Source of the DNA: Deltaproteobacteria bacterium
GTDB taxonomy: Bacteria > Desulfobacterota > GWC2-55-46
Direction: 5' to 3'
Length of the DNA: 64,000 bases
Assembly: GCA_016234935.1 (NCBI GenBank)
Contig: JACRNL010000010.1
Coordinates: 186,001 to 250,000, forward strand
Shown here: in pieces, positions 21,329-24,970 of the stretch
How the letters are laid out: each line of letters opens with the position of its first letter
Position numbering within the stretch: the stretch's first letter is position 1
The notes under the pieces: generated by a model
What the model was told of the DNA's origin: nothing
What the model saw: the letters and a program-made list of their open reading frames with translations, nothing else
Databases searched by the model: none
Translations under genes and position numbers: made by a program

Positions 21329-22267
21329 TCACTTATTCACAGCCTCTTTTATGGCCTTGATGAGGAGCAGGGTTGATTCCCTGAACTTCTGGACCGCCTG
21401 CTTGAGGTCGCCGGCGTCCCTTGCAGAAGTGGCCTCAGCCTTAAGGCTTTGGGCGTCGTCAAGGAGCTTTTGCGTAGACTCGTCGTCGTCCTTCATTACC
21501 TGAGAGGCGAAAAATATGTAGGTGTCGTTCCTTTTAGCCTCGTACGCGAGGGCATCCTTGTCAGAGGCGAACTCAGTCCTTGGGTAGGTGATAGAATCGC
21601 CCTGCGCCTTCTTTATGTCCTTCACGGATTGAGTCGCTTGCAGATACGCGTCGTCTATGAGCTTTAAGGCGTTGTCGTAGTCGTTTATGGCCACCGACTT
21701 CTTGGATTCTTTAAGAAGTCTTCTCGCCTCGCCGAGTTTCTGGCGGGCGGCGCTGTCTTCTTTTTCGGCAAGGAGGCGGTCGGCTGTCATGATGAAGGTC
21801 TCTACCTCGACGATGCCCGTAGTGATCATTGACTCTTTTCTGGCATGGTCCTGGCCTTCGGACATTTCGAACTCTTCCTGAATGATCGCGTCGCGAAGCG
21901 ATCTGTCCTGCGTGCCGGCAAGGGTTATGGCGTAGAGGGCCATGCGGGTTGATTCGCTAATGTCTTCGAGGGCAAAGGCCAGGTCATGTTTTTTGTAGTG
22001 GTAGGCGGCCTCGGCGGAAAGGGTCTGCGCCTTTTTAAGAAATGACTCGGCATCCTGGTTTTTATTGGCCGCGATGGCCTTTTGGGCGGCGGTCATAAAA
22101 ATCTTGTTGGATTTCATCCGGGCGTCAAACCGCTGAACCATCTCAAACTCTTCAGCGGCGGAATTGTCCTGCGCAAAAACTGCGCCAGGGCATGACATGA
22201 CCGAGATGAACGCCGCCATGAGCATGATCTTTCTCAAAATAAAATATACCGGTATCCGCTTCGTCAA
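21329..22267 (-). CDS. Exported alpha-helical protein with three internal repeats, function unknown
   Basis: This 312-residue protein is not recognised as a named family. A signal peptide is clear (LMAAFISVMSCPGAVFAQ). The rest is charged and helical and contains three copies of a roughly 65-residue unit, at about residues 50-115, 150-215 and 245-310. Each has the pattern: a short F-hydrophobic-A helix, then A-x-x-L followed by a Lys-rich turn, then D-hydrophobic-x-x-A-hydrophobic, ending T-x-x-hydrophobic. Compare AAYHYKKHDLAFALEDI, SKKSVAINDYDNALKLI and ATSARDAGDLKQAVQKF. The spacing resembles degenerate TPR-like helical pairs. The start is TTG, overlapping the M1 peptidase stop (TTGA), so the two are translationally coupled and probably work together. 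Confidence 0.8.
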   Translation of the reverse strand: MTKRIPVYFILRKIMLMAAFISVMSCPGAVFAQDNSAAEEFEMVQRFDARMKSNKIFMTAAQKAIAANKNQDAESFLKKAQTLSAEAAYHYKKHDLAFALEDISESTRMALYAITLAGTQDRSLRDAIIQEEFEMSEGQDHARKESMITTGIVEVETFIMTADRLLAEKEDSAARQKLGEARRLLKESKKSVAINDYDNALKLIDDAYLQATQSVKDIKKAQGDSITYPRTEFASDKDALAYEAKRNDTYIFFASQVMKDDDESTQKLLDDAQSLKAEATSARDAGDLKQAVQKFRESTLLLIKAIKEAVNK

Positions 22268-24432
22268 GGCAGTATTTCCTTTTTTAACCTGTTTTCCGCC
22301 GGGGCGCGTCCTTTTTCGACCTTCCTGTCATTGGCGATAATGACGTAACTCTCATCTAAGAAAAAACGCATGCGTTTTATCTTCTCAAGGGTTTCATCAG
22401 GGCCGCCAACGGCCGCAAAGACGCCTATTCCGCCTATGGGATTATCGGCGCTCTTTACGGCCAGACCGACCGTGAAGGAGGCGGCTGGATAGCTCTTGCC
22501 GTTTATGACGAACGGATCGCCTATCGCATTGAGATACCCCTTCAAATAGGACTGTATGACGGCAAATGCGCGGTTCTCCGAAGGGCCGCCGAGCACGAAT
22601 ACGGACCCGTTTTTGACGTGCTCCTGCATATCCTCATCGTCGTCCGTCACGAGCGTGAGATCAAAGTCCTTCGCAAGAAGCTCCGCCCCCGCAAGATATT
22701 TTTCGCGCGCCTCTCCGGCAGACGGCACCACTACGACGGCCTTCCTGTCGCCGAAGACAGCCCCGAACGATGGCGGTATCTCCGCGCTTGAAAGGAGCCT
22801 GAAGTTTTCATAATCAGGGTCTACCTCGACTGAAACAGGCTTTGATGAAAGCTCGGTGTATGCCTTGTAATCCTCGCCGCTGACAGCCATGGTCTTTTTT
22901 ACGAGGCCGTCCTTTTCCGTTTTAAACCCTATCGGCAGCGTCATGATATAGGCAGGGGCCTTCTGTTTTATATTGAAGGAGACAACGTAAGGAGCCTTGC
23001 CGCCGGTTACTTGCACGTTTTCAACGGCAAGTTCAGGGCCGCCGGTCCTGCTGAGCCACTGGTCAAAAAACCAGTAAAGGTCTTTGCCGGACGTTTTTTC
23101 AAAGGCGTTCATGATGTCCTTCCATGCGGCCTTCTTAAAGGCCATTCGGGAATAGAACTCTTTTAGTCCGGCATTGAAGGCATCCTCTCCTATATAATTA
23201 TACAACATATTCAGTACCATCGTGCCTTTATTGTATCCCACCGCCCTTGCGGCCTTGGTGGTGGCATCGGAAAAGTCCGCAAGGGACGTCTCGTCAGGCC
23301 CTGCGAAGTTCTTGTAGCCCCAGAGCTTGGTTGTCCTGAAGTCACGCGCCTCTTCCAGCCCTTTTTTCCTCGCAAGCGCATAGTCCGCCGTAAATGTGGT
23401 CAACGCCTCTGTCCAGTTTCCGCCGGCGCTCTCAGGGAAGACGGAGTTGCCCCACCAGTTGTGGGCTATCTCATGGCCGAGCGACGTGTCGGGTATGAAA
23501 GGCAGTCTTATCACCGTAGAGCCCAGAAGCGTGAACGACGGCATGCCGTAGCCGGTCGGGAGGAAGCTCTCAACTACCGCGAACTTCATGAATGGATAGG
23601 CGCCGAACATGGCGGCATACATATCGAGGTATTCCCGCGTCTTTTTGATGTAGAGTTTGGAGAGGGCGTCGTCTTTATTAAGGAAGAACGTATAGATGTC
23701 TATGCCCTTGTGCTTCTCCTTTTCAACATGGAACCTGGCGGCCACGATGTCAATGCCGGCCAAAGGCTTATCGCTTTTCCAGCGGTTCATGACGGTCTTG
23801 CCGTCCGTCTTTACATCCCTTCCCGCCGGCACGCGCGCGCCTTCGCTTACGGCGGAATATCCCACGGGCAGGCTGACGGTCAGTTCAAAAGGCGTCAGCG
23901 CCCCTTCTTCATGCGGATACCAGTTCGCGGAAGACAGCAGCAGCGCGCCTTCCTCGCCGATAACGCCGTCATCAAGGTAGGCCACGCCGCGCTGGACGTT
24001 TTCCCGCGCGCTGTCAACGGGCTGGAACTTTCCTTTGAAGCTCACCTTCAGCTTTAACTCGACGGGGGTTGGCGATTTCGGCAGGTCTATCAATACCTCC
24101 TGCCGCCGGTTGTCTAATTCATTAGCCGTGAATGTTAAAGCTGCCCCTCCGTTTTCAACGGACTCGACCACGGACATTCCCCTTAAGAGCAGGCGCAGCT
24201 TTTGGGCGCCCTCCCTGACGGTGACAATGTCCGTCCCTTTAAGCTCGCGGTCTTTAAGATCAAGCGTAATGTTTATTTCGTGCATAAGCACGGCTTGAAG
24301 GGGTTGAACCCCCTCAGGTGATTCAGCCCCGTTTTCAGGTTTATCCGCGGCAAAAGACGCGGTGGCGGACAAAAGCGTCAAAAAGAAGGCAATGGCAAGG
24401 ACGGAAATAGTTCTAAGCTGCATCTTTTTCAT
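22264..24432 (-). CDS. M1-family metallopeptidase (aminopeptidase N-like), exported
   Basis: This 722-residue protein starts with a signal peptide (TISVLAIAFFLTLLSATASFA). The gluzincin zinc site HEIAHNWWG is followed by the third ligand Glu in GGNWTEALTTF. The Tyr and C-terminal helical parts of M1 enzymes follow (YNKGTMVLNMLYNYIGEDAF). The classical GAMEN exopeptidase motif is not obvious; the equivalent strand reads YGMPSFTLLG, so strict aminopeptidase activity is uncertain. A C-terminal domain of about 200 residues (KAVVVVPSAGEAREKYL) is extra. After the signal peptide the segment ESPEGVQPLQ is encoded by a palindromic repeat. It overlaps the next gene by 4 bases. Confidence 0.85.
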   Translation of the reverse strand: MKKMQLRTISVLAIAFFLTLLSATASFAADKPENGAESPEGVQPLQAVLMHEINITLDLKDRELKGTDIVTVREGAQKLRLLLRGMSVVESVENGGAALTFTANELDNRRQEVLIDLPKSPTPVELKLKVSFKGKFQPVDSARENVQRGVAYLDDGVIGEEGALLLSSANWYPHEEGALTPFELTVSLPVGYSAVSEGARVPAGRDVKTDGKTVMNRWKSDKPLAGIDIVAARFHVEKEKHKGIDIYTFFLNKDDALSKLYIKKTREYLDMYAAMFGAYPFMKFAVVESFLPTGYGMPSFTLLGSTVIRLPFIPDTSLGHEIAHNWWGNSVFPESAGGNWTEALTTFTADYALARKKGLEEARDFRTTKLWGYKNFAGPDETSLADFSDATTKAARAVGYNKGTMVLNMLYNYIGEDAFNAGLKEFYSRMAFKKAAWKDIMNAFEKTSGKDLYWFFDQWLSRTGGPELAVENVQVTGGKAPYVVSFNIKQKAPAYIMTLPIGFKTEKDGLVKKTMAVSGEDYKAYTELSSKPVSVEVDPDYENFRLLSSAEIPPSFGAVFGDRKAVVVVPSAGEAREKYLAGAELLAKDFDLTLVTDDDEDMQEHVKNGSVFVLGGPSENRAFAVIQSYLKGYLNAIGDPFVINGKSYPAASFTVGLAVKSADNPIGGIGVFAAVGGPDETLEKIKRMRFFLDESYVIIANDRKVEKGRAPAENRLKKEILP
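24296..24318. repeat. Family Y palindrome in frame near the M1 peptidase N-terminus
   Basis: GAAGGGGTTGAACCCCCTCA (24298 onward) matches the intergenic copy at 12877-12900. It is read in frame right after the signal peptide cleavage region. Confidence 0.65.
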
Positions 24433-24614
24433 ACGTTAACCTCATGGAGATATGATTTGTGCTATAATTTATCAATATTAAAGATACCAGAACAACAGCC
24501 TTTGTCCATATAACGATAGATGTATATTACAGAAGTTGTCTTAAAATATTTCTATAAACAGATGAATTTTATTAAATTTGCCGCTAACCGTTTTTTAATC
24601 TTGATATCTTACAA

Positions 24615-24620
24615 TATAAT
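24615..24620 (+). promoter_or_regulatory. Candidate -10 element for the 56-residue peptide gene
   Basis: A perfect TATAAT lies in very AT-rich DNA about 80 bases before the ATG at 24700. No good -35 box is seen at the right distance; a TTTTTTA run is the nearest. Confidence 0.3.
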
Positions 24621-24699
24621 GAAACAACTTGCAAACTCGCTTCTAATGCGGCCGGCACAGGCGGCTGTGAGTTAAATAAGCGGAAAAGGAGACAGGGAT

Positions 24700-24870
24700 A
24701 TGGCCACGAAAATGGACCTTGGCGAGATTATTACCTTTGAGGATATGATTACGGAAACGGATTTAACGGAGTTGATGGATTCAACGCCGGCCTCTTTGAG
24801 GCCGGCCGGAACGCGGTCAGTTTATTTCCTTGTCGGGAGTTCGTGTATCATCTGCAAGAACGGCAAATGA
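24700..24870 (+). CDS. 56-residue peptide with acidic N-terminus and Cys-containing tail, function unknown
   Basis: The peptide begins MATKMDLGEIITFEDMITET and ends SSCIICKNGK. It has an acidic, helical first half, a Pro/Arg hinge (TPASLRPAGTRS) and a short hydrophobic and Ser/Cys tail with a CxxC pair. The ribosome binding site AAAAGGAGA is near-ideal and 7 bases from the ATG. A strong intrinsic terminator starts 60 bases after the stop, so this looks like a true monocistronic gene. A 9-bp perfect GC hairpin (GCCGGCCTC, loop TTT) lies within the coding sequence at 24786-24806. The leader-plus-tail layout is like a ribosomally made, modified peptide precursor, but no modifying enzyme is nearby. 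A small metal-binding or regulatory peptide is equally possible. Confidence 0.6.
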   Translation: MATKMDLGEIITFEDMITETDLTELMDSTPASLRPAGTRSVYFLVGSSCIICKNGK

Positions 24871-24930
24871 TTTTTCATCTCTTTACTTCGCGTCATCGGC
24901 GGGCAGCGCCTTGTTTTTAAAGCCGTCACA

Positions 24931-24970
24931 AAAGACCATGCTCATGGCGGGCATGGTCTTTTTGTTTTTT
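24931..24970 (+). terminator. Intrinsic terminator of the 56-residue peptide gene
   Basis: AAAGACCATGC and GCATGGTCTTT form a perfect 11-bp stem, followed by TTTGTTTTTT. Confidence 0.85.

Follow-up and report, generated by a model that had tools for sequence, protein, structure and literature searches.

A conserved 56-residue small protein of uncultured groundwater bacteria and its putative two-component-controlled promoter

Within a 64,000 nt stretch of DNA from a deltaproteobacterium (hereafter the window, to which coordinates without a further label refer) lies a free-standing open reading frame of 56 codons. From its layout, i.e. an acidic helical front, a Pro/Arg hinge and a Ser/Cys tail, a sequence-only reading had proposed that it encodes the precursor of a modified peptide (RiPP). 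The locus raises the question of whether the frame is a gene and, if so, what kind of protein it makes and how its expression is controlled.

The gene and its product

The features of the gene are the following.
24700-24870, plus strand: 56-aa small-protein gene encoding MATKMDLGEIITFEDMITETDLTELMDSTPASLRPAGTRSVYFLVGSSCIICKNGK, identified by family profile and codon evidence
24684-24692, plus strand: Shine-Dalgarno sequence AAAAGGAGA of this gene, 8 nt before the ATG, read from the sequence
24930-24969, plus strand: strong intrinsic terminator of the gene, of which 24930-24962 comprises 14 pairs plus a T-tract

The reading frame, ribosome binding site and strong terminator described by the sequence-only reading were all confirmed in the sequence. 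A search with the single 56-aa sequence gave weak matches in four related genomes. The homologues that had been proposed as a check were found using a family profile built in two rounds, which matched proteins of 55-65 aa in 19 of the 30 genomes from the window's taxonomic family. The profile found none in 18 genomes from other families of the order, and across 395 genomes of the phylum the matches outside the family were partial and at chance level. No significant match to the 56-aa protein was found in Pfam, NCBIfam, PDB sequences, Rfam, phage or plasmids. In pairs of close relatives the differences at codon positions 1/2/3 numbered 9/8/31, 7/7/24 and 13/9/33, and each of the 12 start sites compared is preceded by a Shine-Dalgarno sequence. 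The profile matches, the predominance of third-position changes and the conserved ribosome binding sites together place the frame beyond chance. A broken frame among relatives had been named as grounds for abandoning the gene; none was seen, and the gene stands. The named relatives of the neighboring M1 peptidase gene come mostly from 'Deltaproteobacteria' metagenome bins, many of them from groundwater. Judged by its sequence conservation, the frame is a real, conserved gene of uncultured groundwater bacteria.

The protein has two conserved blocks connected by a variable linker, with mean pairwise identities of 0.41 (N-terminal), 0.15 (middle) and 0.36 (C-terminal). The N-terminal block is an amphipathic acidic helix (pattern MAxKMxxxEFxSFEExL), bearing out the acidic helical front; the proposed Pro/Arg hinge falls in the least conserved part of the protein. 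The C-terminal block is a hydrophobic hairpin (pattern GVYfLLxxSxVLL).
24820-24858, plus strand: conserved C-terminal hydrophobic beta-hairpin, residues ~41-53, VYFLVGSSCIICK, with strands predicted by AlphaFold2 (at low confidence in the window protein)

The fold predicted by AlphaFold2 is a helix plus a hairpin, with a pLDDT of 55 for the window protein and 73 for a relative, whose hairpin reaches about 92. A fold search with the relative's model, the better of the two, gave no match. The window protein is soluble (the best 19-residue hydropathy is 0.86) and has no signal peptide. The tail, whose conservation was to be checked, is conserved as a hydrophobic hairpin, but its Cys residues are not; family members contain from 0 to 3 of these, at no fixed position.

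A RiPP precursor would comprise an N-terminal leader and a Ser/Cys-rich C-terminal core, with its maturase encoded elsewhere. The shortness of the protein, its acidic helical front and its Ser/Cys tail are in keeping with this, as is the position of the gene in one genome (G008), directly upstream of genes for ATP-grasp-like, TldD and TldE proteins. Against it, the C-terminal block keeps its hydrophobic pattern and it is the middle that varies, so that both ends are conserved where a conserved leader and a variable modifiable core were sought; the number and position of Cys residues are not maintained; and there is no match to a Pfam or NCBIfam precursor. No modifying enzyme is conserved beside the gene among the neighbors in the 19 genomes. 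The ATP-grasp gene is found in 11 of the 30 genomes, adjoins the small gene in G008 only, and its operon with TldDE does not co-occur with the small gene. An ATP-grasp relative, the one RiPP-type enzyme sought in the window's genome, is absent. As the ATP-grasp gene is unlinked to the peptide outside G008 and missing from the window's genome, the precursor explanation is unsupported, and we consider it very unlikely. The G008 cluster was dropped as a one-off.

We note separately an operon of ATP-grasp-like and TldD genes (L045:416-4790, where TldE is also present, and L144-L152) in up to 11 of the 30 family genomes. The ATP-grasp-like protein scores below the Pfam cut-offs.

The first part of the small protein is not confined to this family.
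24700-24768, plus strand: N-terminal module, residues 1-23, common to a second, widespread small-protein family (A5)

Alignment of the small protein with A5 by hhalign placed residues 1-23 on residues 1-23 (probability 88.8, E 2.5e-6). The module scores 15.9 bits compared with a background maximum of 9.0 among 1036 N-termini. Scores of at least 6 bits against the A5 N-terminal profile were obtained for 10 of 18 members of the small-protein family and for 2 of the 1036 unrelated N-termini. In the window's genome the module is seen once. The likeness to A5 (consensus MAEKLDPKEIVSFKELLMSN..EALxxLLxEKGIITkEEF) covers the first ~23 residues; the C-terminal half EALxxLLxEKGIITxEEF is absent from the window protein, which has a beta-hairpin where A5 has a helical SHOCT-like segment. 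A5 proteins (L157-L181) are ~58 aa in length, widespread in the phylum, set among diverse neighbors and present in up to four copies per genome; the family has no Pfam match above cut-off.

The promoter box

Upstream of the gene are two elements on the same strand.
24583-24602, plus strand: promoter box GCTAACCGTTTTTTAATCTT, made of two half-sites that follow each other head to tail, 11 nt apart, of the type YYTAAT-N5-YTTAAT
24610-24615, plus strand: -10 element TACAAT, 7 nt after the box

The TATAAT pointed out by the sequence-only reading is present at 24615-24620, but the register common to the relatives uses the TACAAT that overlaps it. This activated promoter was missed by the first promoter scan because its -35 is non-consensus.

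Comparison of upstream regions places the box before the small gene in 11 of 19 genomes, and in all 11 the spacing from box to -10 is 7-8 nt. The upstream regions that later trained the matrix were also those in which the box was first spotted by eye; the strength of the box was scored by leaving out one genome at a time. In this analysis the window box scored 23.5, compared with a maximum of 19.2 for 596 control upstream regions. The box exceeded all 596 controls in 10 genomes, and for G011 p was 0.0017. G008 also carries the box, although it lay outside the training of the matrix and its gene has moved. The remaining 8 of the 19 genomes (genera g5 and g10) lack the box; these genomes retain the gene, whose regulation has therefore shifted in some of the family. 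A second-round matrix took in four tiny-peptide sites of G000 from the first rounds. An equally good site at window 4442 is located inside a coding sequence and was taken to be due to chance, which shows that a matrix score is not specific by itself.

The tandem half-sites overlap the -35 region at the correct spacing to the -10 element, as for regulators of the OmpR/PhoB type. The 11-nt repeat geometry could also be that of a Pho box, in which case the gene would belong to the PhoB regulon and the neighbor PhoX, convergent with it in G017, G023 and G026, would reflect phosphate starvation. Yet exactly those genomes lack the box, and it is also missing from the pstSCAB-phoU operon of the window's genome (L235), where the best score is 11.4. 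We therefore rejected the Pho regulon, which is the least probable of the explanations that we considered.

Other box sites and a candidate regulator

A matrix made from the orthologues only, combining box and -10, was scanned over 1.07 Mb, i.e. about half of the window's genome. The window gene ranked second among the sites, between the following two loci.
L216 6867-6953 and 7051-7137: tandem 28-aa peptide genes, with the best site for the orthologue-only matrix
L225 7058: box before an operon for a cytochrome b561, an OmpR-family regulator and a histidine kinase, ranked third

The next sites precede genes for tiny hydrophobic peptides at L247 (38 aa), L229 (34 aa) and L212 (a tandem pair of 29 and 41 aa). 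Besides the window gene, the strong sites in the 1.07 Mb thus comprise six tiny hydrophobic peptide genes, the b561/regulator/kinase operon and one site in a coding sequence. No match to a known family was found for the tiny peptides. The two 28-aa genes (L216:6776-7216) are near-identical, separated by three silent changes and two conservative ones, and each has its own box and -10. The terminator region at L216 has a sub-threshold Rfam match to NsiR1.

About 0.80 Mb of G002, a genome from a different genus, was also scanned. Five of its top nine sites precede ORFs of 26-39 aa with a membrane span, four of them in one array. Such an ORF follows 21 of 7761 random intergenic positions (0.27%), so the enrichment in G002 has a binomial p of about 2e-11. 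The other sites lie before a HAD-like ORF, a secreted protein, a CheY-like protein and, in one case, no ORF, from which it follows that the regulon is not exclusively one of tiny peptides. The sites before the CheY-like regulator and the secreted protein are the box-like sequences at L301:7731 (minus strand) and L287:11599 (plus strand), respectively. Once more the box is found at the two-component operon.
L269 15888: box before the orthologous b561/regulator/kinase operon of G002

Between the two genera the regulators share 80% identity and the kinases 63%. Computation shows that the gene is conserved, that the box is conserved, and that the box is present at tiny-peptide genes and at a two-component operon in two genera. 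We single out the b561-operon regulator as the candidate for the box chiefly because its own operon carries the box in both genera.

At least seven tiny membrane peptides are arrayed behind lexA and dinB in G002 (L264:15600-17300, minus strand). No ORF occupies the roughly 190 nt after the box at L264 16925, a stretch that closes with a terminator-like hairpin and could be a small RNA.

In half-sites and 5-bp spacing, the box consensus TCTAATCTTCCTTTAATCTT matches the PmrA box TCTTAATATTATCCTAAGC, which consists of head-to-tail half-sites CTTAAT/CCTAAG with 5-bp spacing (PMC3973317). The likeness to PmrA/PmrB thus extends to half-sites, spacing and an OmpR-family regulator. The differences are that the regulator here scores 188.6 bits, below the PmrA model cut-off of 330, that the operon contains a b561 cytochrome, and that many tiny peptides, several of them in tandem, are among the targets. 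The best-scoring models for regulator and kinase are those of the heavy-metal type (CopR/CusR/SilR; TIGR01387 and TIGR01386), at 253.9 and 273.8 bits; both scores are below the curated cut-offs of 279.2 and 292.55, and membership is not claimed. This suggests that the candidate regulator may resemble PmrA and heavy-metal type systems in its working, without assignment to either.

TisB is a single-span stress peptide, and the tiny peptides here are alike in size and hydrophobicity. The same likeness, again of size and hydrophobicity, applies to DinQ (PMC3567139) and to PmrR and MgrB (PMC3533512). The tiny peptides have no family match, and the window protein is itself soluble. The tiny peptides might be toxin-like and depolarize the membrane in the manner of TisB or DinQ, with the 56-aa protein serving as an antidote or being co-regulated but unrelated. 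Single-span peptides of 26-41 aa in tandem arrays would fit this, as would the position of the G002 array after lexA and dinB. However, most of the tiny peptide genes are preceded by an activated promoter of their own and a strong Shine-Dalgarno sequence, and the peptides match no known family. On balance we find this explanation improbable, if less so than the RiPP precursor.

Possible function of the small protein

Beside the small gene, and transcribed away from it, is a peptidase gene.
22264-24432, minus strand: divergent M1-type metallopeptidase with a signal-peptide-like N-terminus and a HEIAHNW zinc site (PF01433, E 4.3e-13)

The divergent pair is kept in 16 of 19 genomes, whereas the gene on the 3' side of the small gene differs from one genome to another (hemC, a PcrA-type helicase, PhoX, PAP2 or a membrane-fusion protein). 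The sequence-only reading had remarked that the neighboring peptidase could act on an exported peptide; the linkage is indeed conserved, but does not support that mechanism. From the shared intergenic region the small protein could instead be a dedicated partner or regulator of M1, affecting its expression, export or activity, and the persistence of the pair amid differing 3' neighbors is consistent with this. Several observations do not favor such a role. In G008 the small gene does not adjoin M1 within the stretch read and still retains its box, and in G017 a two-component cluster separates the two genes. Moreover M1 appears to be secreted whereas the small protein has no signal peptide, and no box faces M1. 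We therefore regard a dedicated M1 partner as unlikely, though it is the strongest of the rival explanations. A helical repeat protein encoded downstream of M1 (window 21329-22267, minus strand) is conserved alongside it in L039, L040, L041, L043, L044 and L047, and has no Pfam match above cut-off.

Taken as a whole, we consider it probable that the small protein is under a promoter switch controlled by a two-component system. The small soluble 56-aa protein would be made on demand from a sigma-70 promoter in which the tandem half-site box YYTAAT-N5-YTTAAT takes the place of the -35 region. We infer both the binding of a regulator to this box and the signal that triggers it; the box is most likely bound by the OmpR-family response regulator of the b561/regulator/histidine-kinase operon, which itself bears the box. 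The same switch would drive the single-membrane-span peptides of 26-41 aa, some in tandem arrays. The wider proposal is that, in this uncultured family, a two-component system of PmrA-like kind, partnered by a cytochrome b561, has as its main output tandem arrays of single-span membrane peptides together with the 56-aa soluble protein; for and against this we find the evidence about evenly balanced.

What the product does is a more tentative matter. It may work as an adaptor or connector, in which the N-terminal amphipathic helix would dock onto its partner, with the hydrophobic hairpin at the C-terminus as a second contact or as the core of an oligomer. The leading candidates for the partner would be the M1 peptidase pathway or the sensor system of the two-component pair. 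The small proteins known to be controlled by two-component systems are isolated cases (PmrR, MgrB and PmrD). The PmrA/PmrB system has both a membrane peptide (PmrR) and a small soluble connector (PmrD), and the likeness lies in small membrane and soluble proteins tied to such a system (PMC3533512); in sequence we claim no likeness to either PmrD or PmrR.

For this locus the two-component small-protein explanation takes the place of the RiPP precursor. The analysis puts forward a specific box, a regulator that may bind it and a set of genes that may be its targets, all open to direct testing, and the box gives a sequence handle on unannotated tiny genes in uncultured bacteria. If the proposal is correct, a regulon in which tiny peptides account for most of the detectable targets, with several arranged in tandem arrays and the majority driven by activated promoters of their own, would be out of the ordinary.
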